This document shows positions 6,920 to 34,341 of a stretch of DNA of 34,482 bases, in pieces. The notes beneath the pieces were generated by a model. That model had not been told where the DNA came from, ran no database searches, and saw nothing but the letters and a program-made list of their open reading frames with translations. The stretch's first letter is position 1; the number at the start of each line of letters is the position of its first letter. The stretch comes from a virus: positions 1-34,482 of the IMG/VR virus record IMGVR_UViG_3300044846_000857. The stretch is one strand, 5' to 3'. The translations under genes were made by a program, and so were the position numbers.

Positions 6920-7338
6920 TGGGCTATTTAGATAAAGTAAAAGAAAAGAAAAACTCTATTCCAGGATTGGTTGTAGAGTTAATGGACGCGGCACTTAAAT
7001 TCCACGTGCTTCACTTAACCATCGTAGGCCCAGGATCATTTGCAGCTCATAAGGCTCTTAACGAATTATATGATGCACTCCCTGGGCATGCAGATGCAAT
7101 TGCAGAGGGGTATCAAGGAGCAACTGGGGAGATCCCAAAGTATCCTGTAGATATGCCCCCAAGTGTATGTGCCCCAGCAATGTTTACTGTTAAAGATGCC
7201 CTTAGCTATATAGATGAGCTTCATGCTAAAATTAACAGAGTTCAAGATGGATGTGAATTCTCTGAGATCGTCAATGATCTAGACAATATAAAGTCAACTC
7301 TCAATTCTGCTAAATACAAACTTAAGTTCTTGTCTTAA
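6919..7338 (+). CDS. Dps/ferritin-like protein
   Basis: The 139-aa product carries the signature of Dps-type mini-ferritins. Residues His32, His44, Asp59 and Glu63 match the spacing of the E. coli Dps ferroxidase residues His51, His63, Asp78 and Glu82 exactly (12, 15 and 4 residues apart). The surrounding Val-Gly-Pro-Gly-Ser-Phe-Ala-Ala-His and Asp-Ala-Ile-Ala-Glu also fit. The one difference is Asn48, where Dps has Asp67. It is shorter than Dps (167 aa) and lacks its basic N-terminal tail. Similar phage proteins are grouped, I believe, as DUF5856. Dps proteins oxidise and store iron in 12-subunit cages. Coupled by TAATG to both portal and L,D-transpeptidase-like gene, it is likely made during head assembly; whether it enters the virion is unknown. 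Confidence 0.72.
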   Translation: MGYLDKVKEKKNSIPGLVVELMDAALKFHVLHLTIVGPGSFAAHKALNELYDALPGHADAIAEGYQGATGEIPKYPVDMPPSVCAPAMFTVKDALSYIDELHAKINRVQDGCEFSEIVNDLDNIKSTLNSAKYKLKFLS

Positions 7339-8672
7339 TGGACAATGCTATAAGGAAAGACATACTAGCTCGAGCTAAAACTTCAGGCTATCCCGGTAAT
7401 ATAGTAGAAGCATTCCGTGCCTACGACCAGGGTAGAGATCTTGTACAGGAATATGTACAACAACAGCAAGAAGCCTCTCAGCCGCAAATGCAAATTGCTC
7501 AAACTCCAGAAGAGCAAGAGCAAGGATTACGTCCTGCACATGCAGCAGGAAATGTTGACCAAGCTATGGCCTTCCCTAATGTCCAACCTGGGCAGAGTTT
7601 TAATACAATGGGGATGAAAGTTCCTATTGACATAGATAAAGTTGACAAACAAGGAAACTTAGTAGAGTCATATAAGGCTGTACCTCCTGGTTTGCAAAAC
7701 CTTCCAACTGGGCCTTACGAAGGAACAGTAATAGAATCTCCTGCTAAGCAGATTACGAAGACTGGGGGAGTAAAAAGGTATCAGACTGCTGGGCCAGAAG
7801 AGGAAGATACACGAACTCTTGAGTCAGGAACCATAGTTGATAAAGGTACAAATACCTTAAACATAATCGACAAAGGAAAGATTACTAAAACTTTTCCAGT
7901 GTTAACTGGTCAAGCAGGTAAAAACCCAAAGACAGACATAAATAAAGCTGTAGGAACATTAGATGATTTAGAAACTAATCCTGCAGGTAGATCTACCCCA
8001 ACAGGAATTTATATGATGAGTCCAGAATCTAATCTTTACGGTTGGCCTGGATATAGCCTTAATCCTATACCTGCATTTGGACAGCCTGCTCCTGAGGCTA
8101 ATGAAACGGCTATACATATAACCTATGGGGCAACGCCAAAATCTAGTGAGTATGAGGGTCACTCAGAGCCCGCAGAATTCAACAGACGAAATGCTGCTTA
8201 CAAAAAAGATAGCAGCATGAGATACTTAAGCTACGGATGCACCAATGCTCAGGGAGAAGCAATTGAGTGCTTAGAGGACACATTTCCTAAAGGGGATACT
8301 GCAATTTATGTAGACTCTAGATTTAATAGAGATTCTAAATTTTTAAGTAGATTTAAAAACCAAGAAGCTCCCATGCCTGTGGTAGAAGAAGAGCCGACAA
8401 TTGCACAACAACCAGAAGAAAGACCTATTAGCTATACTTTTGACCCAGAGTTTGGAACTGTTGTAAGCAACCCAATAGAAGTAACACCTACAATAGTCAA
8501 AAAGAAAGCTAGAAATAAGTCTAAGAAAAAAGAAACTGGAGGACCAGATACTACAGCAGAGATATCCATGTATGAATGGAAGTCGGGGCTCCCAGAAGAC
8601 TCTAGAAAGAGGTACTTTATAGGGGGGTTAAAGAACAGAGTGCTATACAATAAAGCTAAGTATAAAAGATAA
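7338..8672 (+). CDS. L,D-transpeptidase (YkuD-like) domain protein, likely virion-associated
   Basis: The 444-aa product has a Gln-rich, probably disordered N-terminus and a motif Gly-Gly-Val-Lys-Arg-Tyr-Gln-Thr-Ala-Gly near residue 145. From about residue 160 to 330 there is an L,D-transpeptidase domain. It opens with strands of the 'NTLNIIDKGKITKTFPVLTG' type, then Thr-Pro-Thr-Gly-Ile-Tyr, His260 (Ala-Ile-His-Ile) and a catalytic Ser-Tyr-Gly-Cys301-Thr-Asn. The Ser-Tyr-Gly-Cys-x-Asn form is known in one branch of the family, where others have Ser-His-Gly-Cys. These enzymes remodel peptidoglycan cross-links through an acyl-cysteine intermediate. The tail has Lys-rich, Gly-Gly segments. There is no signal peptide, so action from within the cell is unlikely; delivery with the virion is more plausible. 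It sits between portal and scaffold. Confidence 0.75.
   Translation: MDNAIRKDILARAKTSGYPGNIVEAFRAYDQGRDLVQEYVQQQQEASQPQMQIAQTPEEQEQGLRPAHAAGNVDQAMAFPNVQPGQSFNTMGMKVPIDIDKVDKQGNLVESYKAVPPGLQNLPTGPYEGTVIESPAKQITKTGGVKRYQTAGPEEEDTRTLESGTIVDKGTNTLNIIDKGKITKTFPVLTGQAGKNPKTDINKAVGTLDDLETNPAGRSTPTGIYMMSPESNLYGWPGYSLNPIPAFGQPAPEANETAIHITYGATPKSSEYEGHSEPAEFNRRNAAYKKDSSMRYLSYGCTNAQGEAIECLEDTFPKGDTAIYVDSRFNRDSKFLSRFKNQEAPMPVVEEEPTIAQQPEERPISYTFDPEFGTVVSNPIEVTPTIVKKKARNKSKKKETGGPDTTAEISMYEWKSGLPEDSRKRYFIGGLKNRVLYNKAKYKR
7758..7793 (+). other. GG...YQTAG motif, copy 1 (in L,D-transpeptidase-like protein)
   Basis: Encodes Lys-Thr-Gly-Gly-Val-Lys-Arg-Tyr-Gln-Thr-Ala-Gly, just before the L,D-transpeptidase domain. 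The same pattern appears twice in the 1289-aa protein. The bases CAGACTGCTGGG are identical in this copy and the one near 31926. Confidence 0.7.
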
Positions 8673-19172: not shown

Positions 19173-19580
19173 ATGATTAAGCTAGACAGTTTAGGCAGTG
19201 GTGGAAAGCAAATAATTTATCGACACAAAATATCTGGAGGAACATGGGATTATGGTTCTTTTGAAGAGATAGTTACAGATAATGCTGCACCCCCATCTAA
19301 AATATTTCCTACAGATGACGCTGCTGCTGGAGGAATATTTGACCATGTGTTTATGACAAGTAGTATGGGAAACGGAGATACTAGCATGGACGTTCTTAGA
19401 ATAGGGTCGGCATTTCCTATTTGGACCAGTCTAGGTAATGTTGTTAACAGTATAAAGGGATGGGAAAGTAGTATTACTTATATATACCTTGCTGTAACAG
19501 AGATAGAGTATGTAGGATTTAATCAAAGTAATTTTAAATCTTACTATCATTTAGGGTTTGATGTTTATGTAACAGTATGA
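19173..19580 (+). CDS. Unknown beta-rich protein, possible companion of the preceding one
   Basis: The 135-aa product starts one base after the previous stop and overlaps the phosphoesterase start through ATGA. It carries Ser-Gly-Gly-Thr-Trp-Asp-Tyr-Gly and Gly-Gly-Ile-Phe-Asp-His-Val-Phe motifs and alternating strands, much like the preceding protein in length and style, though I see no clear sequence similarity. A small structural or receptor-binding protein is plausible. Confidence 0.5.
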   Translation: MIKLDSLGSGGKQIIYRHKISGGTWDYGSFEEIVTDNAAPPSKIFPTDDAAAGGIFDHVFMTSSMGNGDTSMDVLRIGSAFPIWTSLGNVVNSIKGWESSITYIYLAVTEIEYVGFNQSNFKSYYHLGFDVYVTV

Positions 19581-20725
19581 ATCTAAAAGAACTGGTAGAC
19601 ATATTAAAAATAAAGCCAGGCTACCTTAAGAGTGGGCCTAGCAGAGTGTCTAGCATGTTCGATGTAGAAGAAAAGATAGCATTAGAGGCAATCAGGGAGG
19701 CTAAGAAACTTCTTAAACAAGCTAGACTTGGCCTCGCTGATAACTCTAACGATAACGAAAGTGTTATCACAGAGTTTGAGAGCTACCTACTAGAAAATGG
19801 AATTAACAGAGACGATGTAGCATCTGTTAAGTTCTGGCAGACAATGACAGGAGAACAACGGTTCTCCGTGGTAACTAAGAATGATAGAATATCTATTGAA
19901 GAGATAAAAAAAGAGATTGAGGAGTTTGCAGCTATATTCAGTCCAACTGTATATAAGCAATCTCCCCCATTTCAGGAGACCGAAGGAGTAGCTTATGAAA
20001 TCTCTCTTCCTGATATTCACTATGGCAAACTTACTGAGTTAACTGTAGAAGCAGCAGAAGAACAGTTTATGAACACTGTTCAAAACCTAGTTGATAAAGC
20101 AAAGGGATTGAATATTGAAAAGTTCATTCTCCCTATTGGGAATGACGGGATGAATTCTGAAGGGATGAGGTTTACTACAACCAAAGGCACCTTTCAGCAC
20201 GACTCAATAGGATGGAGAGAAAGCTTCCATGGTTACTGCCACTTAATGACTAGAGCAATAGACTATCTAAAAGCTAAAGCTCCAGTACAAATAGTAGTTG
20301 TATCAGGGAATCATGATTTTGAAAGAATGTTCTACGCTGGAGATGTCATCAAAGGATGGTATCGTAACGATAAAAATGTTGTTGTAGATAACAGCATGGA
20401 AAGTAGAAAGTATGTAGAGTACGGAGTAAACATGATAATGTATACTCACGGGGATAAGGAGAAGCCAAGTGAAATGCCACTGATTATGGCAACTGAGCAA
20501 CCAGAGATGTTTGCCAGATGCTCAGTTAGAGAAGTACACTGTGGTCACTTACATAAGGAAATGGTCAATGAATACCGTGGAATTAAAGTAAGGTTTATCC
20601 CCTCCATTTGTGCTAATGACGACTGGCACAAGACTATGGGATACTCAGCTATTAGAACAGGCCAGGCTTATATCTGGAGTAAAACTAATGGACTAGAAGG
20701 CTATCTACAAACTATTGTAAAATGA
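19577..20725 (+). CDS. Calcineurin-like metallophosphoesterase
   Basis: The 382-aa product has an N-terminal helical region of about 110 residues with a helix-turn-helix-like start. The C-terminal domain has the metallophosphoesterase motifs in order: Asp146-x-His148, Gly-Asn189-Asp190 (where many family members have Gly-Asp), Gly-Asn245-His246-Asp247, Thr-His291-Gly-Asp, and Gly-His324-Leu-His326. These bind two metal ions. The family cleaves phosphomono- or diesters, including nucleic acids in Mre11/SbcD-type members. The substrate here is unknown. Its place between fibre and ring genes is unusual for a purely nuclear enzyme. ATGA overlaps on both sides show tight coupling. Confidence 0.8.
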   Translation: MNLKELVDILKIKPGYLKSGPSRVSSMFDVEEKIALEAIREAKKLLKQARLGLADNSNDNESVITEFESYLLENGINRDDVASVKFWQTMTGEQRFSVVTKNDRISIEEIKKEIEEFAAIFSPTVYKQSPPFQETEGVAYEISLPDIHYGKLTELTVEAAEEQFMNTVQNLVDKAKGLNIEKFILPIGNDGMNSEGMRFTTTKGTFQHDSIGWRESFHGYCHLMTRAIDYLKAKAPVQIVVVSGNHDFERMFYAGDVIKGWYRNDKNVVVDNSMESRKYVEYGVNMIMYTHGDKEKPSEMPLIMATEQPEMFARCSVREVHCGHLHKEMVNEYRGIKVRFIPSICANDDWHKTMGYSAIRTGQAYIWSKTNGLEGYLQTIVK

Positions 20726-21776: not shown

Positions 21777-22043
21777 ATGGCATCCGCAGCATGGCAACGA
21801 TCTGAAGGTAAGAACCCAAAAGGGGGTTTAAATGCCAAAGGCAGAGCATCTTACCGTGCTGCTAACCCAGGCTCTAAGCTTGGAGCCCCACAACCTAAAG
21901 GAGGAAAAAGACGAGATTCTTTCTGTAACAGGATGTGTGGCATGAAGTCTAAGCTTACATCAAGCAAAACTGCAAACGACCCAAATTCAAGAATAAACAA
22001 GTCTCTTCGCATCTGGAAATGTGGAAGCTGCTCAAACTGGTAA
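21777..22043 (+). CDS. Small basic protein of a recurrent phage family (DUF6321-like)
   Basis: The 88-aa product is basic, with Lys-Gly-Gly-Leu-Asn-Ala-Lys-Gly-Arg-Ala-Ser-Tyr at residues 15-26, Ala-Pro-Gln-Pro-Lys-Gly-Gly-Lys-Arg-Arg-Asp-Ser-Phe-Cys near 38-51, and Asp-Pro-Asn-Ser-Arg-Ile-Asn-Lys-Ser-Leu-Arg near 67-77. This pattern occurs in many large phages and I believe corresponds to DUF6321. Four cysteines (Cys-x3-Cys and Cys-x2-Cys) could bind zinc. Function is unknown; binding to DNA or packaging into the capsid would suit the charge. Confidence 0.65.
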   Translation: MASAAWQRSEGKNPKGGLNAKGRASYRAANPGSKLGAPQPKGGKRRDSFCNRMCGMKSKLTSSKTANDPNSRINKSLRIWKCGSCSNW

Positions 22044-22047
22044 CCTA

Positions 22048-22278
22048 ATGAAAAACTTTGAATTTGATAACGACATGACTCACCAACTTGAATGGATCGG
22101 ACTTAATGCAATATGGGCAGGATGGACTTGGGCAATGATGTCTAATGCAGTCACTTGGGGCCTAGGAATCGTAGGGGCAGTTACCCTTATTTGGTTTAAC
22201 ATAGAACGTGCTCTAACTGCTAGAAAGCAAAGAGCTATGTACGATAAAAAACTGCAAGACAATGAAGAAAATGCTTAA
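22048..22278 (+). CDS. Small membrane protein (candidate holin)
   Basis: The ATG at 22048 is preferred over the in-frame GTG at 22021, which overlaps the upstream gene. The 76-aa product has a polar, acidic N-terminus, a hydrophobic stretch from about residue 16 to 52 (one long or two short membrane helices, Trp-rich), and a charged Lys/Arg C-terminus. This layout fits a holin but also fits other small phage membrane proteins. It overlaps the next start by 17 bases. If it is a holin, lysis genes are split between this place and the left edge. Confidence 0.5.
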   Translation: MKNFEFDNDMTHQLEWIGLNAIWAGWTWAMMSNAVTWGLGIVGAVTLIWFNIERALTARKQRAMYDKKLQDNEENA

Positions 22279-22912
22279 ACGGGCCGACGGCTCAAAAAGT
22301 CGAAGAGGCCTGTGGGATAATATAAGAGCTAATAAAGGCTCGGGTAAAGAACCAACTAAAGAGATGCTTAAACAAGAAAAGAAGATTAAATCTAAAGGAA
22401 TGGGGGGACCTGGTGATCAAGGTAAGCCTGCTAAGGCTGCATCAGACACCACTACTGTTCCTACATCTGAAATGACCAAGTCAGCAATGGCACAGCTTTC
22501 TAAAAATTTGCCTGCAACTCAAGAAATGTTAAAAGCTGCCTCGAATAAAAAAGATACACGAGAGGATAAACTAACCATCCCCTCTCTTGATAGAGCTAAC
22601 TTAAACATGGAGCCTAAAAGAAAAAAATCTGGTGGAAAATCTACCTGGTTGATGGAATCCAAAGAACTTAAGTTTGGTGGTCCTACTAATAAGAAAAATA
22701 AATACTTAGACGGAGGTCCTTCAATGGATACAAAAACAGCAGTAGGTCAAGTATTCCAAGGTAAAATGACAGCTGAGCAAGGACAAGCTGCTATTGGGAA
22801 AACTGCAAAACCTGCTATGACTCCTGAGCAAAAAACAGAGTTTATGTCAAAGCTTAAAACTTATGGCAAAAAAACCGGTGGTAAAAAAAGAATGGGTGGT
22901 AAAAACTGTTAA
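22262..22912 (+). CDS. Lys/Gly-rich basic protein with KxGG motifs
   Basis: The 216-aa product is highly basic and probably mostly disordered. It contains Lys-Ser-Gly-Gly-Lys-Ser-Thr-Trp-Leu-Met-Glu-Ser near residue 121, followed by Glu-Leu-Lys-Phe-Gly-Gly-Pro and Lys-Tyr-Leu-Asp-Gly-Gly-Pro, and ends in Lys-Lys-Thr-Gly-Gly-Lys-Lys-Arg-Met-Gly-Gly. The Trp-Glu-Ser-Phe-Gly-Gly portion recurs in the next gene, and the Tyr-Leu-x-Gly-Gly-Pro portion at the start of the 1289-aa protein. It is a candidate for an internal DNA-associated virion protein or a maturation substrate; neither is proven. Confidence 0.6.
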   Translation: MKKMLKRADGSKSRRGLWDNIRANKGSGKEPTKEMLKQEKKIKSKGMGGPGDQGKPAKAASDTTTVPTSEMTKSAMAQLSKNLPATQEMLKAASNKKDTREDKLTIPSLDRANLNMEPKRKKSGGKSTWLMESKELKFGGPTNKKNKYLDGGPSMDTKTAVGQVFQGKMTAEQGQAAIGKTAKPAMTPEQKTEFMSKLKTYGKKTGGKKRMGGKNC

Positions 22913-22923
22913 TACTAAATAAA

Positions 22924-23781
22924 ATGGTACCAATGTATAAAAAGGGTGGTAAGAAACCCAAAAGCTCTTGGATGAAAGAGTCTAGTGAAATAAAGTTTGG
23001 AAATGGAGGTCTTTACTCTGCAGCTGAAAAAGCTGACAATGTCGCTAAACTGAAAAAGATGCACGGCATGGAAGGCACTAAAAAGAAAACTGGAGGAGCT
23101 GATAAGCCTCCATTTAAGTGGAAAACTAGGGAAGAGCGCCAGACAAAAAAGCTTAATAAGAATACTGAGAAGATAACAGAGCTTGAAAAGATTAAAGAAA
23201 GCATGCTTATGAATGAAAAAGCAGAGCAAGAAATTGTTCCTGACATAAAAGGAAACTCTGAGATGCAACTTCTTGAGGATCAACTTAACAAGTTAAAAAA
23301 GAGAAACACCAAATTAAATAAGACTTTAGATAAGTCTATTCAAAAAAATTCTGAGTCAACAATAAAGATTGCTAAAACTGGTGGTAAATCTATGGAGCCA
23401 GGTGGTGGTGGAAGATTTGCTGCAATGGTTTCAAATCTTAAAAAAAAAGGAAAGTCTGAGGGCTCGGCCAAAAAAATAGCTGCCGCTATTGGAAGAAAAA
23501 AGTACGGTAAGTCTAAGTTTCAAGAGATGGCTGCTAAAGGCAAGAAAGGTCTTGGTGGCATGTCAGACTCTACTAGTTCTAACGATGCTGGTATGGGGAT
23601 GATGAAAAACCCTGACAAGCCTGGAACAGCAGTTGGAAGATTTATTAAAAGCATTTTTAAGCCAAAGTCTAAATCATTAAAGCCAGGATATACTCCACAA
23701 AGAAGTAAGACTAAATCTTGTAAAGGAGGAAGCTGTTTTGAAAAAGCCAATGAAAGAAGTGGCATGAATTGGAGAAAATAA
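22924..23781 (+). CDS. Lys/Gly-rich basic protein with coiled coil and RFAAM...IGRKKYG module
   Basis: The 285-aa product opens with Lys-Lys-Gly-Gly-Lys and Ser-Ser-Trp-Met-Lys-Glu-Ser-Ser-Glu-Ile-Lys-Phe-Gly, paralleling the upstream protein. A coiled coil rich in Lys, Glu and Leu spans about residues 75-145. Then comes Gly-Gly-Gly-Gly-Arg-Phe-Ala-Ala-Met and, about 27 residues on, Ile-Gly-Arg-Lys-Lys-Tyr-Gly-Lys-Ser-Lys-Phe. The latter is a small module that recurs at the ends of unrelated phage proteins (recollection, not searched). The C-terminus has two Cys. It is likely virion-associated. Confidence 0.58.
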   Translation: MVPMYKKGGKKPKSSWMKESSEIKFGNGGLYSAAEKADNVAKLKKMHGMEGTKKKTGGADKPPFKWKTREERQTKKLNKNTEKITELEKIKESMLMNEKAEQEIVPDIKGNSEMQLLEDQLNKLKKRNTKLNKTLDKSIQKNSESTIKIAKTGGKSMEPGGGGRFAAMVSNLKKKGKSEGSAKKIAAAIGRKKYGKSKFQEMAAKGKKGLGGMSDSTSSNDAGMGMMKNPDKPGTAVGRFIKSIFKPKSKSLKPGYTPQRSKTKSCKGGSCFEKANERSGMNWRK

Positions 23782-23784
23782 TTT

Positions 23785-24291
23785 ATGCAAACCAAATCAC
23801 ATACAATAAGAGCTATATTTAAAGACTACGACGAAAACACTGAAGACAAAATAAGCTACCGAGTATTTGCTGACATATGTTCTGAGTTCAACATTGCAAT
23901 ATTTGACGAGATACTGAACGGGTACGAGTTCAATTTGCAGAACAACTTAGGGACAGTGTCAGTTAGAAGAGTAGAGAGAGACCCAAGGATACCACAAATT
24001 AACTGGGGAGAAACTACAAAATACAAGAGAGAGTTACTTGACAAAGGTGTTAATCTTTATGATAGCCAAACAGGGGAAGGGGAAAAGTGGCACATTTACT
24101 ATACAGATAAGTTCTATTGTAAATTCCACTGGACCAAGAGCCGTGCTAAGATTAAAAATAAAACCGCATATAGGTTTGACGCCACTAGAGGTGTAAAGGG
24201 CAATAAGGAAAAGCTTACTGCCCTTTTACACACTGATGACCTAGCCTACTTACGGTTTAAGAAATACGTACCTGGTTTTCATAAACATTAA
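23785..24291 (+). CDS. Conserved late-region protein of unknown function
   Basis: The 168-aa product contains Ser-Tyr-Arg-Val-Phe-Ala-Asp-Ile-Cys near residues 24-32, Gly-Tyr-Glu-Phe-Asn-Leu-Gln-Asn-Asn-Leu-Gly and Val-Ser-Val-Arg-Arg-Val-Glu-Arg near 46-65, then Trp-Gly-Glu-Thr-Thr-Lys-Tyr-Lys-Arg. I have seen this arrangement in large Bacteroidota phages beside the tail ring gene, but no function is established. The basic, Trp- and Tyr-rich second half suggests nucleic-acid or protein contact. It lies three bases before the ring gene. Confidence 0.6.
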   Translation: MQTKSHTIRAIFKDYDENTEDKISYRVFADICSEFNIAIFDEILNGYEFNLQNNLGTVSVRRVERDPRIPQINWGETTKYKRELLDKGVNLYDSQTGEGEKWHIYYTDKFYCKFHWTKSRAKIKNKTAYRFDATRGVKGNKEKLTALLHTDDLAYLRFKKYVPGFHKH

Positions 24292-24294
24292 AAG

Positions 24295-25191
24295 ATGCTG
24301 TACAAACTAATATCAAGTAAAGTCATTATCAGGAAAGTTATGAGGGACTTAAAACCTCCTGGAGATAACTGGATTGATGATTCAGTAGAATGGATGGGGG
24401 AAGCACTCGAGCACATTGGCTCTGCTCCTCAACTTAGCCAGAAAGGCTGTGTTCTTCCTATTAAGAACTTTAGGGCTTTACTCCCAATTGATTTGTACTA
24501 TGTGCAGCAAGTAGCAGTAAACAATGCTATTAATCCATCTATCTCTGTAGAACTTGATGCTTTGTTTGAGGAGGTAAAAACTTTAAATGCTCAGATTGTT
24601 TCTAATCCAAATGATAAGATCTCATTTAACAATCAGCTTAGAGAATTAAATGCTAGGATAGTAGTCCTTGAAAACCTGTACATGAATACAGGCCAGCCTC
24701 TAACTCCGCTGCAATACGGCACCACTACATTCCCTAACAGCTTAGACTGTGAAGATTGCAAAAACTTATATGGGGTAGTTAAGCCTAGTTACATCATTGA
24801 CGGAGATTACATCAAAACTTCTTTTCAAGATGGAGCTGTATGTGTAAGCTACACAGCCTTCCCAATTGATGACGACTGCTATCCAATGATTCCAGATGAT
24901 GTAAGCTTTAAAGAAGCTTTGTTCTGGTATGTATACAAGCAGATGCTTCTTGGAGGATACACCCCATCTATGAATGGTATCGGGTATGACTTTGCTGATG
25001 CTAAATGGAAGTTCTACTGCTCACAGGCTAGAAACCAATCTAACTTCCCAAGTATCGACAAGTACGAATCATTCATGAACCAGTGGGTACGTCTTGTTCC
25101 TAACTTGAACAGACATGCTAACTTCTTCGAGAACCTTGGCACTAGAGAGACACTTGACAGAGGAAGATACACTAATTACGGAATTTTATAA
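24295..25191 (+). CDS. P22 gp4-like head-tail adaptor / tail ring protein
   Basis: The 298-aa product begins with a helical segment ending Val-Ile-Ile-Arg-Lys-Val-Met-Arg-Asp-Leu, then Trp-Ile-Asp-Asp-Ser-Val-Glu-Trp-Met-Gly-Glu-Ala-Leu-Glu-His-Ile-Gly and Leu-Pro-Ile-Asp-Leu-Tyr-Tyr-Val. This is the pattern of the gp4-type tail ring of crAss-like phages. The middle contains a coiled coil (about 90-130) and a beta part with Phe-Gln-Asp-Gly. The C-terminus has helices with Tyr-Lys-Gln-Met-Leu-Leu-Gly-Gly. Such proteins form a ring beneath the portal. Position directly before the 1758-aa protein agrees. Confidence 0.7.
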   Translation: MLYKLISSKVIIRKVMRDLKPPGDNWIDDSVEWMGEALEHIGSAPQLSQKGCVLPIKNFRALLPIDLYYVQQVAVNNAINPSISVELDALFEEVKTLNAQIVSNPNDKISFNNQLRELNARIVVLENLYMNTGQPLTPLQYGTTTFPNSLDCEDCKNLYGVVKPSYIIDGDYIKTSFQDGAVCVSYTAFPIDDDCYPMIPDDVSFKEALFWYVYKQMLLGGYTPSMNGIGYDFADAKWKFYCSQARNQSNFPSIDKYESFMNQWVRLVPNLNRHANFFENLGTRETLDRGRYTNYGIL

Positions 25192-25193
25192 TT

Positions 25194-28100
25194 ATGGCAG
25201 ATTCAGTTAAACCCTTAAAAGGAATGTTTAAGGACACTAGTCCTGTAGACCAACCTAACGGTACATATAGAGATGCCCTCAACGCTGTAATAGATGTAAA
25301 GAGAGGAGCCATTTCAAATGAGTATGGAACTAAAGCTCATGGAGAGTTTTTATCAACATACTTTAATACCTACAGTACAGTTCCAGTAGGGTGCATTACA
25401 CTTCCTGATGATAACCTTATTGTGTTTACTGCAAGTGAGGCTCCACATCTTTTAGGTCCATTTTTTCCTGCAGCTATATATGAGTTTAGATTGTCTAGTA
25501 TTTTTCATGTAAACACCAAATACAACAAAGACTCTATAAGTGGTAATCCTATTACAGAGCTGTATACTACAGCAGATGTAGATGCTTTTACAGGTCTCCC
25601 ATATACAACTGGTGACTTAAATTTTAAAATAACTCACCCAATAACAGGAGAAGCAAGAATAAATCCTAGTGGGGAAATAATAGTTTACTTTACTGATAAT
25701 TATTCAAACATTACAGTAGAATCTCAAACTGAAATAGAATACGTAGAATCTTACAACCCTCCTAGAGTATTTAATGTAACTAGACAGCTTGCTTATTTAA
25801 ATCCTAGCTTTGGTGTATTTCTACCAGCATTTAATAATCTCTATAGTTCTCCTACTAAAAATGTAAACTTTTTAAATATTTTTCCAGACACTGGGAGAGT
25901 AGCAGAAATTTTGCAAGCTAACATTGTAGAAGGTGGTGGAGTAGAAACTGGGGTATATCATTTGGCTTTAGCTTATGCAGATGTAGACTTTACAGAAACA
26001 GATGTATTTACAGTTAGTTTACCAGTATCCATTGTTCCTCTTGCAGAGAATACAATCCCAAGAGAAACAATTACTGGAGCTCCAAATGAAACTCAAACTG
26101 GCAAGAGTATAAAATGGTCAATACCTGGATCTACTGTAAATTTTGATTACACTTACATCATCCCTTACATTATACAAAGAATAGGGGATGCTGTGTTTAC
26201 CTATAAGTTAGAACCAGTAAAACCTAGACTAGGCACATCACTTGTAGTTATATCCTATAGTGGGTTAGAGGGAGCAGCTCAGTCATCACTTGATGAGGTA
26301 ATAATAGATACGGCTAAGTACCTAACAGCTAAAACTCTTACACAACTTGACAACAGGTTGTATATGGGAAACTTAACTAATCGTAGAGATTTAGGGTATC
26401 AAAGATTTGCTAACTCTATTGTTGTAGACGCAGTAACTAGAACTGTACAGGATTTTGATCCCAGAAGTTACGATATATATAATTTGAACAAAGGATATGC
26501 TCAAATGATATATGCCGACGTTTTGGACAATGGTAATTCAACTCCATACTTTGCAGTAGACGCTGAGGTAAGATACTCAATAAAAGGAGACATAGTAAGT
26601 TATATAGAAAATGTAATTCGTCCTATTCAAACAGGAACTTCAAAAGGATACAGAGATACTCAATTAAACACAAAGAGAAGAAGCTATAGAAGAGGAGAAG
26701 TATATGCATTCTATATCTCCTTTGTATTCAAAGATGGAAGTGAGTCTTATGCCTATCATATTCCAGGTAGGATGAAAAAAGATATTTCTAAAGGAGGAAC
26801 TGGTGGTCTAGATGAAGATTATGGTATAGATGATCTAAGCTTACAATATACAGAATTCAATGGAGAAGAAATAAAGTCTTCTCAGCCGAATGGTAAGATA
26901 TATCAGTTTATAGATACAAGTTATTTAGGAACTACTCCAACTACAATGGGATTTTGGGAAAACGAAAATGAGTTTTACCCTACAAATGATCCTGACTTTT
27001 CTGCAATATGGTCTGTGCAGCCTGGTGGAACTCCGCTGTTTACTCCAGGTTTTGGCATGAATGGAAATAGAGTTAGGCATCATAAAATGCCTTCTAATCA
27101 CAATTTTGATTTTAGCTACGTAGAATACAATCAAGACTTTAGCTCACCAAATCTTATATCAACATCCGGTAGCACTGGCCAAGTTTCTTTCTCAGAAACA
27201 GTAAGACTACTGGGAATAAGATTATCAAATATCAGCATACCTAAGTTCATGCTTAAGCAAGTTCAAGGGTATAAAGTTTACTATGCTAAAAGAAACCAAT
27301 ATGATAAGACTATCATTGGTCAAAGTGGATGGCATCCAGCTACTCCGTACTTAGCAGGTAACATAGCTACTACAAGACAAGATGCCTCAAGAGGTCCATA
27401 CTACACGATATGGCATATGAACGGCAACTTGCATAGAACTGGGTTGATACATAACACAGCTTTGTGGACAGATAAAAGTTATTTATCACAGCCAGTAGGT
27501 AAGTTTCACGACTTTAATCTTCTTCGTAAAAAGCCAACCTTATCTACAGCTACTCACGTAGATATTCAGGCTATCATGACTATGCAGCCTTGGACTGGAG
27601 GGTTTAAGGGCATGCAACTTGGAGAAGTGCCAGATGCAGTAGTCTCGGGAATAAGCTCCTACATGTATACCAGCATGAGATCTGGACACGGAGATTCAGA
27701 GTACGTATGGATTCATCCAAACTTAGGAAACACTGTAGACAGAAATATAAGTGAAGGGGATGTAGGATACGACGTATGGGGCCCAAGAGTCCTATGGGGA
27801 AATGTATATATAGCTGCAAGATGGAGACCTGCTGGATTCCCAGGAACAGATGCTGGGTATACTGGACTTTTTGCATATGTTTCAGGATCACCCCCAGAAA
27901 ACGAATTTGAAAGAAACCAGTCAGATGTTTTAACTTATCTGCAGACTATCTTTATGGTATCCCCAGATTCTGCTAGCTACATCAACGGCCTTGGAACTCT
28001 TAAAAATCAATCTGCTACTGCATACCAAGGAGCTACATTTTTAAATAATAGTAGTGGAGAAAGTGCAATAGCTCTAGGCTTAATATCCGGGTTGCCTGTT

Positions 28101-30470
28101 CTTCATGGATTTTTAGAATCTACTTGGAACTATTACGATTACCAAGAATATGTTCTTCAAGGCACTCCTCAAATATCCATGCCATCTGAGGATCCTGAAA
28201 ACAACAGGGCTCAGTTAATGGCTAACAATAGAGAGTTCATTAGAAAGCTTGATGAACTCGGAAAACCAAATGTATATCTGCTAAACTTATGCTCTTATAA
28301 AACAGACGTGTTTGAGCCATTTGAATCTCAGCAGCTTGTGTGGACTGGTCACTATCAAAGCTTAGCAGATGTAGATGTTGAAACTGGAGAAGGCATTATT
28401 CGAGAATCTGCTCTTACTCCTTCAATAAATGTTAACTACTACACTGGGGCACAGTCTCTAGATATATTTGGGGGAGATACTTTTATATGCAGATATGGTT
28501 ATAGAACAACCAATCAAGATAGTCAATTAGTATACTTTAGAATTGGAGAAAACACTATTGCAGGTGGCAGAAATCTTTGGGGGGACATTCCTTTAAATAT
28601 GCTAAATGGTTATACTGCTGGGGAAAGAGTACTTTGGAACATTGGAAATGCTCAGCAAAGATATGACACAGTAGTAGGAGACGTATCTTTTATAAACTAT
28701 AACTGGGTTACTCCGGTACACGATGTAATGACTACTATATATCAGTTCCTTGTGGAATCTGATGACAACATTAACTTTAGATATGTTGGGGATGTAGAAA
28801 AAGGAGTTAGTCCTGCTAACAGTGTATACTTTGATAGAAACGTAGCATCAGAGGTACTATACAAGTCTCCACTGTATGACTTAACTAAAATGGATAATAT
28901 GCTGTATGAGGATCAATACTCTGCAGCTCAAAATCTTAAAGTAGCTTTACCATATCCTAAATCTGAAAAATCTGTAATTAGATTCCCAGGTAGGGTTATT
29001 AGATCAAGTGTTCTTCAAGGTAACTTTGATGATACCTATAGATACTTCCTTGCATTAGACTTTAAAGAGTTCCCAGTAAACAGAGGGGAGATTACCAAGC
29101 TGTTTAACTTGAGTGCTCTTCTTCACGTGCACACGACTAGAAGCATGTTTAGAACAAAGGGTAAGCAAGTAGTTCAAATGACTGATGCCTCTCAGGCTTA
29201 CATCGGATCAGGAGACCTGTTTGCTCAAGAACCAGAAGAGTTTATCCAATCTGTTGATGCATATATTGGGATGCATGGAATTACTTCTGGGGTAGTAATA
29301 AAGGATGGGTATGCTTTTATATCTAGAAAGTCAAGAAACATATTTATGCTCGGTGGAGAAGGATTAAAGAACCTAACCGACATAGGTATGTCCTACTGGG
29401 CTAGAGAGAATATACCATTCATACTAGAAGAATACGGGTATGTATTTGACCAACCAGATAGACTCTCTTACCCAGACTCCCCAAGTGAGTACTTTGGTTT
29501 CCACATTACTTACGATCCTCTGTTCAGAAGAATAATAGTAACTAAGAAAGAACAAGTACCAACTGAATTATTTTTAACATTCTGGAATACTGATAGAATA
29601 TTTATAGAAGAAGGTACTAACCAGTACTATACAAACGTAATAGGAGTAGGTGGAGAATTACGACGTTACGATATTAATCTTGATGACCCTCAGTTCTTTA
29701 CTAAAGGTGGATGGACAATATCGTACTCCCTAGATCAAGATGTATGGGCTAGTAGACATAGCTATCTACCTAAAGTGTATGGGTTTAATTCTAGGTACAT
29801 GTATAGCATGCCTGGAATAACTCTTGATCCAAACTCTTTGACTACATCTACAATATTTGAGCACTCTGATATGGAGAACCCTTGCTCTTTCTACAGTTTA
29901 ACGGGAGCAGGGTATTATCCAGCAGTTTATAACTTTGAGATAGATGTAATCTTCACAGGTCAGGAAAGTGATAAAGGATCTGCCAGGTACTCTAATAAAG
30001 TTTACGGATCTGTAAACTATATGATGGATGCTTATCTTAAGATAGGAAACTCAGACCCAGTTAAGCAGCAGTTTAATCCTGGGTTTACCAGTTACTATAC
30101 TTACAATACGACTCAGATATCTGGGGAGAATCCTTTAGTTCACCTAACCAGCATTCGTAAAGTAGAAGGTCATTGGAGCTTTAATAGCTTTAGAGACCTG
30201 TCAAGAATAGAATTTAACACAACCTTAGTAGCAGGAAGCATAAATGTGCAGGGTGATCCATACAGTGGGACTTATACTACCTCAAGCTCAGCTATGTTCT
30301 CATCAGAAGGGGTTATAAACTTTAACTATATAGACGGCAACAAACCTTGGTATGAGCAGAGAAAATTCATAGATAAATTCTTGGGAGTTAGATTAATTTC
30401 TAACAACTCATTGAAAAATTTACTAAGTTTGTATATCGTATCTTCTCCATCCAGAATATCTCCAAGATAA
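25194..30470 (+). CDS. Very large tail muzzle / DNA-stabilisation protein (P22 gp10-like candidate)
   Basis: The 1758-aa product starts with a segment Lys-Gly-Met-Phe-Lys-Asp-Thr-Ser-Pro-Val-Asp-Gln-Pro-Asn and Tyr-Arg-Asp-Ala-Leu-Asn-Ala-Val, then Gly-Ala-Ile-Ser-Asn-Glu-Tyr-Gly. This layout resembles the start of gp10-type stabilisation proteins. The rest is beta-rich and full of Tyr, Asn and Thr, with short repeats such as Asp-Asn-Arg-Leu-Tyr-Met-Gly-Asn that suggest a beta-propeller. It has no signal peptide, coiled coil or enzymatic motif. In podoviruses such proteins close the tail and hold packaged DNA; in crAss-like virions very large beta proteins form the tail muzzle. It is the largest gene here and directly follows the ring gene. 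Confidence 0.62.
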   Translation: MADSVKPLKGMFKDTSPVDQPNGTYRDALNAVIDVKRGAISNEYGTKAHGEFLSTYFNTYSTVPVGCITLPDDNLIVFTASEAPHLLGPFFPAAIYEFRLSSIFHVNTKYNKDSISGNPITELYTTADVDAFTGLPYTTGDLNFKITHPITGEARINPSGEIIVYFTDNYSNITVESQTEIEYVESYNPPRVFNVTRQLAYLNPSFGVFLPAFNNLYSSPTKNVNFLNIFPDTGRVAEILQANIVEGGGVETGVYHLALAYADVDFTETDVFTVSLPVSIVPLAENTIPRETITGAPNETQTGKSIKWSIPGSTVNFDYTYIIPYIIQRIGDAVFTYKLEPVKPRLGTSLVVISYSGLEGAAQSSLDEVIIDTAKYLTAKTLTQLDNRLYMGNLTNRRDLGYQRFANSIVVDAVTRTVQDFDPRSYDIYNLNKGYAQMIYADVLDNGNSTPYFAVDAEVRYSIKGDIVSYIENVIRPIQTGTSKGYRDTQLNTKRRSYRRGEVYAFYISFVFKDGSESYAYHIPGRMKKDISKGGTGGLDEDYGIDDLSLQYTEFNGEEIKSSQPNGKIYQFIDTSYLGTTPTTMGFWENENEFYPTNDPDFSAIWSVQPGGTPLFTPGFGMNGNRVRHHKMPSNHNFDFSYVEYNQDFSSPNLISTSGSTGQVSFSETVRLLGIRLSNISIPKFMLKQVQGYKVYYAKRNQYDKTIIGQSGWHPATPYLAGNIATTRQDASRGPYYTIWHMNGNLHRTGLIHNTALWTDKSYLSQPVGKFHDFNLLRKKPTLSTATHVDIQAIMTMQPWTGGFKGMQLGEVPDAVVSGISSYMYTSMRSGHGDSEYVWIHPNLGNTVDRNISEGDVGYDVWGPRVLWGNVYIAARWRPAGFPGTDAGYTGLFAYVSGSPPENEFERNQSDVLTYLQTIFMVSPDSASYINGLGTLKNQSATAYQGATFLNNSSGESAIALGLISGLPVLHGFLESTWNYYDYQEYVLQGTPQISMPSEDPENNRAQLMANNREFIRKLDELGKPNVYLLNLCSYKTDVFEPFESQQLVWTGHYQSLADVDVETGEGIIRESALTPSINVNYYTGAQSLDIFGGDTFICRYGYRTTNQDSQLVYFRIGENTIAGGRNLWGDIPLNMLNGYTAGERVLWNIGNAQQRYDTVVGDVSFINYNWVTPVHDVMTTIYQFLVESDDNINFRYVGDVEKGVSPANSVYFDRNVASEVLYKSPLYDLTKMDNMLYEDQYSAAQNLKVALPYPKSEKSVIRFPGRVIRSSVLQGNFDDTYRYFLALDFKEFPVNRGEITKLFNLSALLHVHTTRSMFRTKGKQVVQMTDASQAYIGSGDLFAQEPEEFIQSVDAYIGMHGITSGVVIKDGYAFISRKSRNIFMLGGEGLKNLTDIGMSYWARENIPFILEEYGYVFDQPDRLSYPDSPSEYFGFHITYDPLFRRIIVTKKEQVPTELFLTFWNTDRIFIEEGTNQYYTNVIGVGGELRRYDINLDDPQFFTKGGWTISYSLDQDVWASRHSYLPKVYGFNSRYMYSMPGITLDPNSLTTSTIFEHSDMENPCSFYSLTGAGYYPAVYNFEIDVIFTGQESDKGSARYSNKVYGSVNYMMDAYLKIGNSDPVKQQFNPGFTSYYTYNTTQISGENPLVHLTSIRKVEGHWSFNSFRDLSRIEFNTTLVAGSINVQGDPYSGTYTTSSSAMFSSEGVINFNYIDGNKPWYEQRKFIDKFLGVRLISNNSLKNLLSLYIVSSPSRISPR

Positions 30471-30471
30471 C

Positions 30472-33400
30472 ATGAAGAAAAAACTAAAAACCAAATACTT
30501 AGCTGGTGGACCTCCACAGAATTCCTACTTTGGAATGTCAAGAGATAACACGATGGCTATGTCCAATCTAGACTCCGTGTCTAGGGGAGTTGCAGGAGCA
30601 GTATCTTCTTTAAATCAAAGTCAAGAGCAACAGCAGTTAGACAGCTTTAAGAATGTTGCAAACTCTGCTATGTCAATGATTAAAAAGAAAGGGGGATTTA
30701 CTCGTAAGTTCCAAACAGCAGGGGCATGTCCTGCAGGACTTGCTTGGGATAAAGCATCAGGTCAGTGCCTCCCAGATCCTAACTGGGCAGGATCTACTCC
30801 AGGTCTTGGAGTTTTAGCAGAAGAGTACTTGCCTGGAATGCAAGCTGCTTGGGAAGGTGAGTTTCAGCCAACAGATCTTTTAGCAGAGCAAAAAGATACC
30901 GGAATAACTAAAGTAGGAGATATTCCTGGAGCCATGATGTTGCAGGATAAATACTTAACAGATCCAAATACTCTAAATTCTTTACAAGGAGTAGAACCTA
31001 TAGTAGGAAATATTGCAAAACAAGCTAAAAGAGCTGGCAAAGTAACAGACCTTGTAGAGCAGGGAGTTCCGGTGGCTTCTAATAAAATCAATCTAACTGG
31101 AGCTCTTCCAGGGGCAGGTTTAGTAGGAGCTGGATTAGCTGCTATGGCTACTAATATGACCAGTGATAAAAACGCTGCTACATTTACAAGAGGTGAAAAA
31201 GCTGGTACTTATGCAAGTGGAATCATATCAGGAGCTGCATCAGGTGCTAGCAAATTTGGATTACTGGGGGCTGTAGGAGGAGGAATAATGGGAGCATTTG
31301 GTGCTAAGAATGCCGCAAGAGAAGCAGAAAATGTTGCTAAAGGAATACGTAGAGAAGAAGAAGCATTAGGTGTAGCTAGCAGAGAAGCTTCTAAAAATTC
31401 TTGGCAAGGACAAGAATCAGGCTTTGCATATAAAGGCTCTACTAACATGAACATGCAAGGAACTGGAGCTAGAAGAATGAAGAGTGGTGGAGTAGAGAGA
31501 GTTCCAGGGGGACTAATTGTCCCCATCAAGGGAACTAATGCTGTTGAATACATTGGTAATAAACACTCAGAATCTAAAATAGACGGGGTATCAGGAATTC
31601 GAATAGATGAGGATACAGAGGTAGAACACAAGGAAACTAAACAACCAGTAATGATGGCTAAATCAGGAGGAGCTGACAGCTCTAAGGGTAAAATGAGAGA
31701 TTACTTTTTCTCAGCCTATCTTAAACTTGGAGGCAAATCATTTGCCCAAAGACATAAAGAAATCTTAGCAAGTGGTGGAAAGAAGTCAAAAGTGCAAGCA
31801 TTGGTTCAAAAGCTTGCTCAAAAGCAAGAAGCCGTTGCCAATCAGAATGGAGAAAAGGATAGAAGCCCTGATACAATAGCAAGTCCTAATTCTGTATCTA
31901 AAAAATATGGTGGCATTCATATGTACCAGACTGCTGGGGAAAAAGAAGAAGAGACTAAAGATGAAACGGCTGCTACCCCAGAAACTTTTTATGAGTTTCC
32001 TGTAGAAAATGCTGGAGATGAGACTTTATATTATAACGGAATAGCCTTAAAAGCAACTCCATCTCTAGACTACAATGGAAACCCAATTGAAAGTCAGTTC
32101 AGCACACCAGCTACGGATGTAGGAGATCCGAATAAAAGATATATGAGACCTGGGATAAGCAGGCCTGAAAGAAGTGGGGTAGGAAGAGAATTAGATACAA
32201 AATCAGGTCCTTGGAGTCTTGTAGACAAAATTGGGGGAAGAGGGGTATTTAGAAGGGGAAATCAAACTGTTGGTGCTAGTGACGTCTATGAAGCATATGA
32301 CCCCACTGATACTCCAGATTCTGAAAGATCAGTAAGAAGACATAGCTATTTAAAAAACCAATTCCTTCCGCTAGAAGAAGAAATGAAGGAGTCTGATTAT
32401 AGTAACCTTGCTCCAATAAAACCCTTGAATGGAGTTAAACCCGAGACCGCTGTAAATGCGGATGGATCAGTTACAGTATCAGGAGTTCAAGCTAATAACC
32501 CTGTAAAAGAAATAGGACCTGATGGAAAAGAAATATTCAGAGTTTATGATGATAATGGAGTAGTAATAGGAGAATCTTCTGTTAGCAGCGTTGCTAAATC
32601 TAAAGCTCAAAACGAACTTATAGCCAGAGAGTCTAAAAAAGCTAAAACAGCTGCCGAACCAAATGAGGATAACTATGGTCAAAACTCAATGAGTCTAGAT
32701 GACATGGTGGAGATGGATGACGGCAGTTATGTGACTAAAGAGGAATATGAGAAGTCTGTATCTGGGGCTAAGCCTGCAGCAACTCCAGAAGCTTCAGCTA
32801 ATGCTCAGTCTAATGCTGATGCTAGCAATGTAACTGTTAGAGATCAGAACCAAGCTAATGCTGAGTCTCCATCTGCTCAAGAGTCTAAAGCTCCAGGAGC
32901 AACTAGCAACAATGCAGGTCAAGCTGCTGTAGATGCTTCTGCTAAGGCAGGCACACAGGATACCACTGCAACTACTACTAGCGAAGACGGAACTCCTGTT
33001 ACTAGTTCTACAACTACTACATCTAAGTCTGGAACAGCTACAACTGGAAACACTGGAACACCTGCTGATAAGAGAGCTAAATTACTGGAAGAAACTCAGC
33101 CAATTGCTGCATGGGAGAAACCTGCTCAAACAAAAGATAAACTAGGATCTACTCCTAGAGAGAGTATTAAATCTGGTATTTGGTCTGGAGATAATTATAA
33201 TAAAGAGTGGAAGCCTTTGGTGGAAGAGACTATGGCTGATGCCGATTTAGCTAAGAAGGTATACGACTATCTTACAACTTATCAAGGACCGTCTAATGAA
33301 GTAGCTGCTGTTAAAAAACGTATAACTGATGATCCTGCTACTTCTATTAAGTCAATTATAGAAAATGCTACTGATGGAGATGTAGGGCCATTTCACAATG

Positions 33401-34341
33401 CTGTGCTGAATGCTATTAAATCAGTGCAGCCTAAACCTGTTGTTACTCCAACTCCTACCCCTACTCCAACTCCGACTCCTACACCAACGCCAACACCTGA
33501 AAAAGAGCCTTGCCCAGAAGGCACATTCCGTAGTCAATCTGGGGAGTGCTTACCTATTCCTAAAAACATAACTACTAAGTCCTATTGGAGTAAGACAGCT
33601 GGTCTATCTCAGTACTTAGCTCCTGTATGGGCTCTTCTTAATCCTTATGAAAAGACTAGAGGAATGGCAGGAGTTCCTACAGCTTCAGCTGGACCTAATC
33701 CTAGAGTTAACTTAAATCAGGAGAGAGCTACTGAAAGAGAAGAGAATATTGCAATGACTAACATGGTTAGAAATCAAAGTGGTATTCAAGCTGCTATCGG
33801 TCAGTCGTTCAACAATAAGCAAAATGCTTCAATGCTTAAGATAGCTCAGCAAGAAGGAAACATCAATAAAGCTTTGATAGCTGATGAACAAGATCGTGCA
33901 GCTAAAGTTTCTATGTTCAATGTTCAGAACGAAGTCGAAAGACAGAAGTTCAATAGAGCTCTTGCTAAAGAAGAAAATCAATATGCAAGAGAAGATAAGT
34001 TGGCAGCATTGCAACAAATAGGACTTGTTACTGCAGGTAACTATAGGGACATGATGATGTATGAAGCCACTGAAAGACTTGCAGATGCTATGCAAATAGG
34101 TGGGGAATATACACGTAGAAAGTTCTACGAGGCTTTAAAGAGTGACCCAGCTTTTAAAGGAATGTCAGATATGTCAATTAAAGAGTTTGCTAATGCTTAC
34201 TACAATCTTACTGAAAGACCATATGAAAGAACTAATGCTAATGAAAGCACTCGTAACGTGCAGAAGTTAGGTGGTACAAGAAGATATACTAGCAGACTAG
34301 GAGAGCTTACAAAAAGGAAAAGTTTAAAATTTAGTAAATAA
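30472..34341 (+). CDS. 1289-aa cargo-type protein with GG motifs, Cys modules and TP linker
   Basis: The product opens with basic residues and Tyr-Leu-Ala-Gly-Gly-Pro. It has two copies of a Gly-Gly...Gln-Thr-Ala-Gly motif (about 71-85 and 478-489) and a Gly/Ala-rich, possibly membrane-active helical part (about 215-285). At about 337-463 is a module with Gly-Asn-Lys-His-Ser-Glu and Tyr-Phe-Phe-Ser-Ala-Tyr-Leu-Lys. A Ser/Thr/Ala low-complexity region (about 770-865), nine Thr-Pro repeats (992-1009), two CPxG...SGxCLP modules (Cys86 and Cys1014) and a helical C-terminus complete it. No enzyme motif is seen. It is plausibly an internal or ejected virion protein. Codons are AGA-rich, unlike the capsid gene. 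Confidence 0.58.
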   Translation: MKKKLKTKYLAGGPPQNSYFGMSRDNTMAMSNLDSVSRGVAGAVSSLNQSQEQQQLDSFKNVANSAMSMIKKKGGFTRKFQTAGACPAGLAWDKASGQCLPDPNWAGSTPGLGVLAEEYLPGMQAAWEGEFQPTDLLAEQKDTGITKVGDIPGAMMLQDKYLTDPNTLNSLQGVEPIVGNIAKQAKRAGKVTDLVEQGVPVASNKINLTGALPGAGLVGAGLAAMATNMTSDKNAATFTRGEKAGTYASGIISGAASGASKFGLLGAVGGGIMGAFGAKNAAREAENVAKGIRREEEALGVASREASKNSWQGQESGFAYKGSTNMNMQGTGARRMKSGGVERVPGGLIVPIKGTNAVEYIGNKHSESKIDGVSGIRIDEDTEVEHKETKQPVMMAKSGGADSSKGKMRDYFFSAYLKLGGKSFAQRHKEILASGGKKSKVQALVQKLAQKQEAVANQNGEKDRSPDTIASPNSVSKKYGGIHMYQTAGEKEEETKDETAATPETFYEFPVENAGDETLYYNGIALKATPSLDYNGNPIESQFSTPATDVGDPNKRYMRPGISRPERSGVGRELDTKSGPWSLVDKIGGRGVFRRGNQTVGASDVYEAYDPTDTPDSERSVRRHSYLKNQFLPLEEEMKESDYSNLAPIKPLNGVKPETAVNADGSVTVSGVQANNPVKEIGPDGKEIFRVYDDNGVVIGESSVSSVAKSKAQNELIARESKKAKTAAEPNEDNYGQNSMSLDDMVEMDDGSYVTKEEYEKSVSGAKPAATPEASANAQSNADASNVTVRDQNQANAESPSAQESKAPGATSNNAGQAAVDASAKAGTQDTTATTTSEDGTPVTSSTTTTSKSGTATTGNTGTPADKRAKLLEETQPIAAWEKPAQTKDKLGSTPRESIKSGIWSGDNYNKEWKPLVEETMADADLAKKVYDYLTTYQGPSNEVAAVKKRITDDPATSIKSIIENATDGDVGPFHNAVLNAIKSVQPKPVVTPTPTPTPTPTPTPTPTPEKEPCPEGTFRSQSGECLPIPKNITTKSYWSKTAGLSQYLAPVWALLNPYEKTRGMAGVPTASAGPNPRVNLNQERATEREENIAMTNMVRNQSGIQAAIGQSFNNKQNASMLKIAQQEGNINKALIADEQDRAAKVSMFNVQNEVERQKFNRALAKEENQYAREDKLAALQQIGLVTAGNYRDMMMYEATERLADAMQIGGEYTRRKFYEALKSDPAFKGMSDMSIKEFANAYYNLTERPYERTNANESTRNVQKLGGTRRYTSRLGELTKRKSLKFSK
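30681..30726 (+). other. GG...FQTAG motif, copy 2, leading into the first Cys module
   Basis: Encodes Lys-Lys-Gly-Gly-Phe-Thr-Arg-Lys-Phe-Gln-Thr-Ala-Gly-Ala and is followed at once by Cys-Pro-Ala-Gly. It is one residue longer than copies 1 and 3 between Gly-Gly and the aromatic residue. Confidence 0.68.
31900..31938 (+). other. GG...YQTAG motif, copy 3
   Basis: Encodes Lys-Lys-Tyr-Gly-Gly-Ile-His-Met-Tyr-Gln-Thr-Ala-Gly and is followed by an acidic Glu/Lys stretch, as copy 1 is followed by an acidic stretch. Confidence 0.68.
33445..33498 (+). repeat. Thr-Pro repeat linker (nine TP units)
   Basis: Nine consecutive Thr-Pro dipeptides at residues 992-1009 of the 1289-aa protein. The codons vary (act/acc/aca/acg with cca/cct/ccg), so selection on the protein rather than recent DNA slippage keeps the repeat. 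It forms an extended linker before the second Cys module. Confidence 0.85.

Follow-up and report, generated by a model that had tools for sequence, protein, structure and literature searches.

Why do several otherwise unrelated proteins of one phage locus carry the same short peptides with a Gly-Gly pair, and are these peptides cut by an adenain-like protease, as a preliminary description had suggested, or used in some other way?

The locus and its relatives

The window analysed here, which is the entire 34,482-base virus record IMGVR_UViG_3300044846_000857, is a block of virion genes of an uncultured Crassvirales-like (crAss-like) phage. Its TerL is about 40% identical to that of gut crAss phages, and the crassvirus capsid protein, Ring 1, Ring 2 and muzzle were all recognised by Pfam. 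Relatives were drawn from viral contigs via TerL and Ring 1, with 16 long records among them examined from end to end. The closest of them is G002 (86 kb, TerL 97%); the ends of this record overlap, and its genome is likely complete or near-complete. The landmarks of the region in question are as follows.

21777..22043, + strand: DUF6321 protein of 88 aa, a small Lys/Gly-rich neighbour (Pfam, E 5e-19)
24295..25191, + strand: Ring protein 1 (PF24228, E 5e-57)
25194..30470, + strand: Muzzle protein (PF25731, E 1e-11)

The window also contains a 96-aa ORF (634-924) with the look, by sequence alone, of a GroES co-chaperonin (phi14:2 has a GroEL gene), a DUF5856/ferritin-like protein adjoining the portal (6919-7338) and a calcineurin-like phosphoesterase (19577-20725) present in 16 of the 17 records.

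A strictly spaced motif is enriched in three gene intervals

The peptide KYLxGGP is present in both proteins for which it had been reported, as KYLDGGP at aa 147 of p216 (nt 22700) and as KYLAGGP at aa 8 of the 1289-aa protein (nt 30493). The many further GG sites described in these proteins turned out to be in excess in p216 (6 against 2.7 expected) and p285 (9 against 3.6); the 1289-aa protein (13 against 10.8) and the YkuD protein (3 against 2.9) showed no such excess. Since the GG pairs of the 1289-aa protein were not in excess and lay partly in a folded domain, raw GG counts were dropped in favour of a spaced motif. As judged from sequence comparison, KYLxGGP is one instance of the strictly spaced motif [KR][YF]xx[GA]G. 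The claim that shared motifs link p216, p285, the 1289-aa protein and the YkuD protein was borne out, and the GG-type sites, whose absence from relatives would have spoken against the preliminary description, are kept there.

In the 17 crass-like records, which are related genomes and give counts that are not independent, [KR][YF]xx[GA]G occurred 77 times against 6.4 expected (12-fold) within three gene intervals that were chosen when some of the data were already known. It was found 29 times (1.9 expected) between the portal and the scaffold-like gene, 14 times (1.1 expected) between Ring 2 and Ring 1, and 34 times (3.6 expected) in the interval beside the muzzle, which includes C1; elsewhere in these records, in 1249 other proteins, it stayed at chance (29 against about 31). 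Reversed or swapped versions, versions re-spaced by one residue, and Lys-aliphatic versions were near chance in the same proteins. At 87 dereplicated sites, the x positions favoured Gln (4.9-fold) and Thr (3.6-fold), and the residue right after the motif was preferentially Phe (4.5-fold) or Pro (3.9-fold, 17/87); the motif followed by Pro occurred 13 times against 0.4 expected. The codons used for the motif were not the same among the copies in the window. A matrix trained on the N-termini of C1 proteins alone detected an excess in p444 (8 against 0.4) and in p216/p285 (6 against 0.7).

The position of the motif was also biased. Among the proteins longer than 230 aa that are encoded in the portal-scaffold interval and the interval next to the muzzle, 17 of 37 had the motif within the first 45 aa and 22 of 37 ended in GG followed by a basic tail of at least +3, each compared with 1 of 500 elsewhere. 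The motif was not in excess in the tested stretches of the cultured or reference phages crAss001, Fpv1, cr118_1 and phi14:2, nor in the distant record G012. RNA polymerase cargo proteins were without the motif, which therefore does not mark cargo in general. An earlier description of the motif was not found in the literature searched.

The 1289-aa protein is a homologue of cargo protein C1

30472..34341, + strand: homologue of the C1 cargo protein, gp45-like, 1289 aa (gene order, hhalign, BFVD structural matches)
30493..30510, + strand: N-terminal KYLAGG behind the basic leader MKKKLKT
30706..30723, + strand: KFQTAG motif, C1 aa 79-84
31486..31845, + strand: folded domain, C1 aa ~339-458, proposed counterpart of the portal-bound domain of gp45 (alignment, model, BFVD)
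31921..31938, + strand: MYQTAG, C1 aa 484-489, in a low-confidence linker after the folded domain
34264..34338, + strand: C-terminal GG and basic tail KLGGTRRYTSRLGELTKRKSLKFSK of C1

By sequence comparison and gene order, the 1289-aa protein is a homologue of the crassvirus cargo protein C1 (crAss001 gp45). Its gene directly follows the muzzle gene, in the same place as gp45 in crAss001, and in the relatives the C1 gene is followed by C2-like and RNA polymerase-size genes. A comparison with gp45-like proteins by hhalign gave a probability of 97.7% (E 2e-12, 80 columns). A strong PDB match of the C1 profile was discarded as circular, gp45 being in the alignment used, and a profile built without gp45 did not retrieve gp45 from the PDB; the support for homology thus comes from hhalign, from gene order and from the BFVD matches. 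Confidence in the predicted structure of the central domain is high, and in BFVD this domain matches C1-like proteins from crAss002 and from cr phages; a Foldseek search of the domain model against the PDB gave no match. In the alignment, this domain corresponds locally to residues 425-552 of gp45, which lie on the portal in crAss001, where gp45 is found in both head and tail (PMC10172136). The conserved GG pairs at aa 339, 346, 420 and 435 lie in the confidently predicted part, and are therefore best read, from the model, as structural.

The N-terminal copy of the motif recurs in this family: 27 of 34 dereplicated C1 homologues have it within their first 60 residues, against a mean of 0.34 and never more than 3 in 1000 shuffles. 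These N-termini are typically KKYQxGG or KKYxLAG behind a leader with a median of 13 residues and a net charge of +5. The MYQTAG site has Lys or Arg at its first position in most relatives. In the C1 proteins of some close relatives, a DUF2272 module directly follows KYxKGG. A tblastn search of the phage collection with C1, with the low-complexity filter on, gave no match, and a check for tandem DNA repeats found only one, the Thr-Pro stretch in C1. The C1 proteins of gut crassviruses (L310-L314) carry variants including NQYLLGG, NRYDDGG and QFAYGG. In phi14:2 (NC_021806 g069/g070, L317), the functions of C1 are seemingly split over two genes, one of them with two HExxH-like stretches.

p216 and p285 descend from one protein

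22262..22912, + strand: p216, corresponding to the N-terminal half of a protein encoded by one ORF in most relatives (comparison with relatives)
22262..22390, + strand: RGLWDNIR domain, p216 aa 1-43, a widespread phage module
22646..22681, + strand: WLMESKELKFGG element in p216
22700..22717, + strand: KYLDGG motif in p216, followed by Pro
22924..23781, + strand: p285, corresponding to the C-terminal half of the ancestor shared with p216 (comparison with relatives)
22933..22950, + strand: MYKKGG, in which Met takes the first position of the motif, close to the start of p285
22969..23001, + strand: WMKESSEIKFG element in p285
23374..23559, + strand: conserved basic domain GGGGRFAAMV...GRKKYGKSKFQEMAAKGKKGLGG in p285

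The second element that had been noticed, W[LM]xESxE[LI]KFG, indeed occurs in p216, at aa 129-139, as well as in p285, at aa 16-26, and a pairwise BLASTP of the two gave E=0.010. In most relatives, the p216 N-terminus (RGLWDNIR) and the p285 C-terminus (GRFAAM...GRKKYGKS) belong to one ORF with a single W-x-ES-x-E-x-KFG element, and the closest relatives have two ORFs with one copy apiece. On this comparison, p216 and p285 are two descendants of one protein, and this is why the element occurs in both. Searches of the phage collection by tblastn (low-complexity filter on) with the single-ORF form and with its end domains gave no match.

The RGLWDNIR domain was found in more than 400 viral loci in varied contexts. 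Some copies (about 46 aa) stand alone as a small protein, and others are joined to DUF6321-like sequence or to large GG-rich proteins (L236-L308). In the contigs with this module, the motif was found 26 times against 3.8 expected in GG-rich large proteins, which hints at a range wider than this lineage, though some of these contigs may themselves be crass-like. A dockerin/EF-hand-like module, FPDLNGDGKTTFADVLKGRGV, is repeated between KxGG motifs in some p216/p285 relatives (L101, L096, L132).

p444 keeps its ends around an exchanged middle

7338..8672, + strand: p444, with a conserved N-terminal helical/DUF192-like region, a YkuD module and a C-terminal tag (Pfam, alignment of 11 relatives)
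7776..7793, + strand: RYQTAG where the conserved N-terminal part of p444 meets its YkuD module
8607..8669, + strand: C-terminal tag KRYFIGGLKNRVLYNKAKYKR, retained in 11 relatives with differing middles

The p444 gene lies between the portal and the scaffold-like gene, and its YkuD domain scores above the curated Pfam cut-off (24.8 against 23.4 bits). In its relatives, which range from 235 to 1048 aa, the first ~140 and the last ~19 residues (Y[FIL]xGGL[KR]NRVxYNKAKYKR) are conserved, and the middle is wholly replaced by a YkuD, glucosaminidase or unrecognised module. The exchange separates otherwise close phages, with YkuD in the window and glucosaminidase in L075/L070 (see also L008 and L072). 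The motif in p444 is mostly internal or C-terminal. The AlphaFold model is confident for residues 1-46 alone and says nothing on the tag. The last 13 codons of the tag are near-identical even at silent sites, so a recombination anchor could account for part of its conservation.

Cleavage site, linker, plug or recognition peptide

While the linkage of the proteins by shared motifs and the conservation of the sites stood, their proposed processing by an adenain-like, LxGG-specific protease did not. The enriched motif is [KR][YF]xx[GA]G, LxGG itself being barely enriched (32 against 21 expected), and the adenain-like LKLGG of the 1289-aa protein lies inside the confidently predicted folded domain. 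Most endopeptidases would not cut a bond directly followed by Pro, the residue that is 3.9-fold enriched right after the second Gly. A protease was indeed not visible in the window, and beyond it, a Pfam scan of G002 gave only peptidoglycan-type hydrolases. Profiles of S78, C39 and C1 proteases had no match in the 16 relatives, and neither did that of C48, in a search run without a working control. Together, the enrichment of Pro after GG and the lack of a recognised protease in the likely complete G002 disfavour cleavage after GG. A broader processing role, in which a phage or host protease would detach leaders and tails from C1, p444 and p216/p285 and split their modules apart during head maturation or ejection, agrees with the conservation of residues upstream of GG, with the phi14:2 C1 functions appearing on two separate proteins that both have MS/MS evidence, and with the terminal and inter-module sites, which are where prohead proteases act on the T4 internal proteins and Alt (PMC9026906). 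The cut may instead fall at a different bond, or be made by a host enzyme or by a diverged one; the phiKZ protease, for its part, long escaped recognition (PMC9026906). Given the Pro residues and the empty searches, we nevertheless consider processing unlikely.

The K/G-rich composition of the proteins, the near-identical DNA at the p444 tag and the many contexts of the RGLWDNIR module would also fit a flexible Lys-rich linker idiom that has no specific receptor and spreads with modules by recombination, its basic leaders and tails binding packaged DNA. Such an idiom leaves the exact spacing unexplained, and the preference for Gln and Thr between Tyr and Gly and the differing codons of the window copies likewise make it doubtful. 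As the C1 motif falls within the first 45 aa in 15 of 21 proteins beside the muzzle, the C1 leader and motif might instead block the gate of the muzzle and govern the ejection order, with the remaining copies as derivatives; the gp45 of crAss001 is considered to exit N-terminus first, and an unassigned 14-residue segment adjoins the muzzle (PMC10172136). However, the motif of p444 is mainly elsewhere than at the N-terminus, and crAss001 has the variant NIFDTGG, which lacks the Lys-Tyr pair, so that this role seems very improbable.

The Lys/Arg-Tyr-x-x-Gly-Gly peptide seems to have more in common with an address label that directs loading or docking than with a cutting site. Quite possibly, and this is the reading we tentatively adopt, the motif and the short Lys/Arg-rich leaders and tails form a recognition peptide, a docking or capsid-loading tag, on a few internal virion proteins. 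In its favour are the spacing-specific enrichment in the three intervals with permuted motifs near chance, the p444 ends conserved around a changing middle, the homology of C1 to a crassvirus cargo protein, the tolerance of Pro after the motif, and the location of the motif at C1 aa 484 in a low-confidence segment. C1, p444 and p216/p285 are probably carried inside the virus particle; for p444 and p216/p285 we infer this, together with a binding partner and a loading function. The peptide, carried by the C1 cargo, the lysin-like cassette protein p444 and the Lys/Gly-rich p216/p285 family and displayed at termini and flexible module joints, would be bound during assembly by a common virion component, such as the scaffold-like protein, the portal or the tail rings. 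Binding would then cause otherwise unrelated modules to be loaded or held with the C1 complex.

Comparison with known systems

Our best guess, by analogy, is that the motif works like the capsid targeting sequences of T4 (IPI-III, Alt), in which a short terminal peptide is common to otherwise different internal head proteins. In both cases a conserved terminus sits on exchangeable bodies, here on proteins encoded among head and tail genes. In T4, these sequences terminate at an L/I-x-E site that gp21 cleaves (PMC9026906), whereas the conserved site here is GG within [KR][YF]xx[GA]G, a motif that recurs internally and that often has Pro behind it. A prohead protease, of the S77 type of T4 or of another, was not recognised by Pfam in G002, nor S78 in the 16 relatives.

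The C1 protein of the window resembles crAss001 gp45 in its place beside the muzzle, its hydrophobic Gly-rich segment, its proposed portal-bound domain and its C-terminal helical region. It differs in being longer and in having several KYxxGG motifs, in some relatives with the inserted DUF2272 module; the motif was not enriched in the crAss001 region tested. In the substrates of adenain/ULP1 (C5, C48) and of double-glycine (C39) processing, too, a short consensus precedes a Gly-Gly pair, but here this consensus is another one, Pro is enriched after GG, and such a protease was not found (for C48, in the search lacking a working control). Encapsulin cargo-loading peptides are short, lie on flexible ends and direct cargo into an HK97-fold shell. 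In contrast to them, the present motif is also N-terminal and internal, and the likeness is one of description, with no sequence similarity claimed.

Meaning for crassvirus biology

The crassvirus order is highly abundant in the gut. It is possible, and we suggest it tentatively, that crassviruses of one lineage, and maybe further phages of Bacteroidota, possess an undescribed terminal-tag system that loads exchangeable enzyme cassettes of L,D-transpeptidase, glucosaminidase or DUF2272 type into their particles through [KR][YF]xx[GA]G recognised by a virion component. The motif is a marker with which such proteins can be found where homology fails. If it is a recognition peptide, the selection of C1 and of exchangeable lysin cassettes as cargo becomes directly testable, and the peptide could be exploited to bring proteins of choice into phage particles. 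The finding bears on how crassviruses choose and order their large protein cargo.
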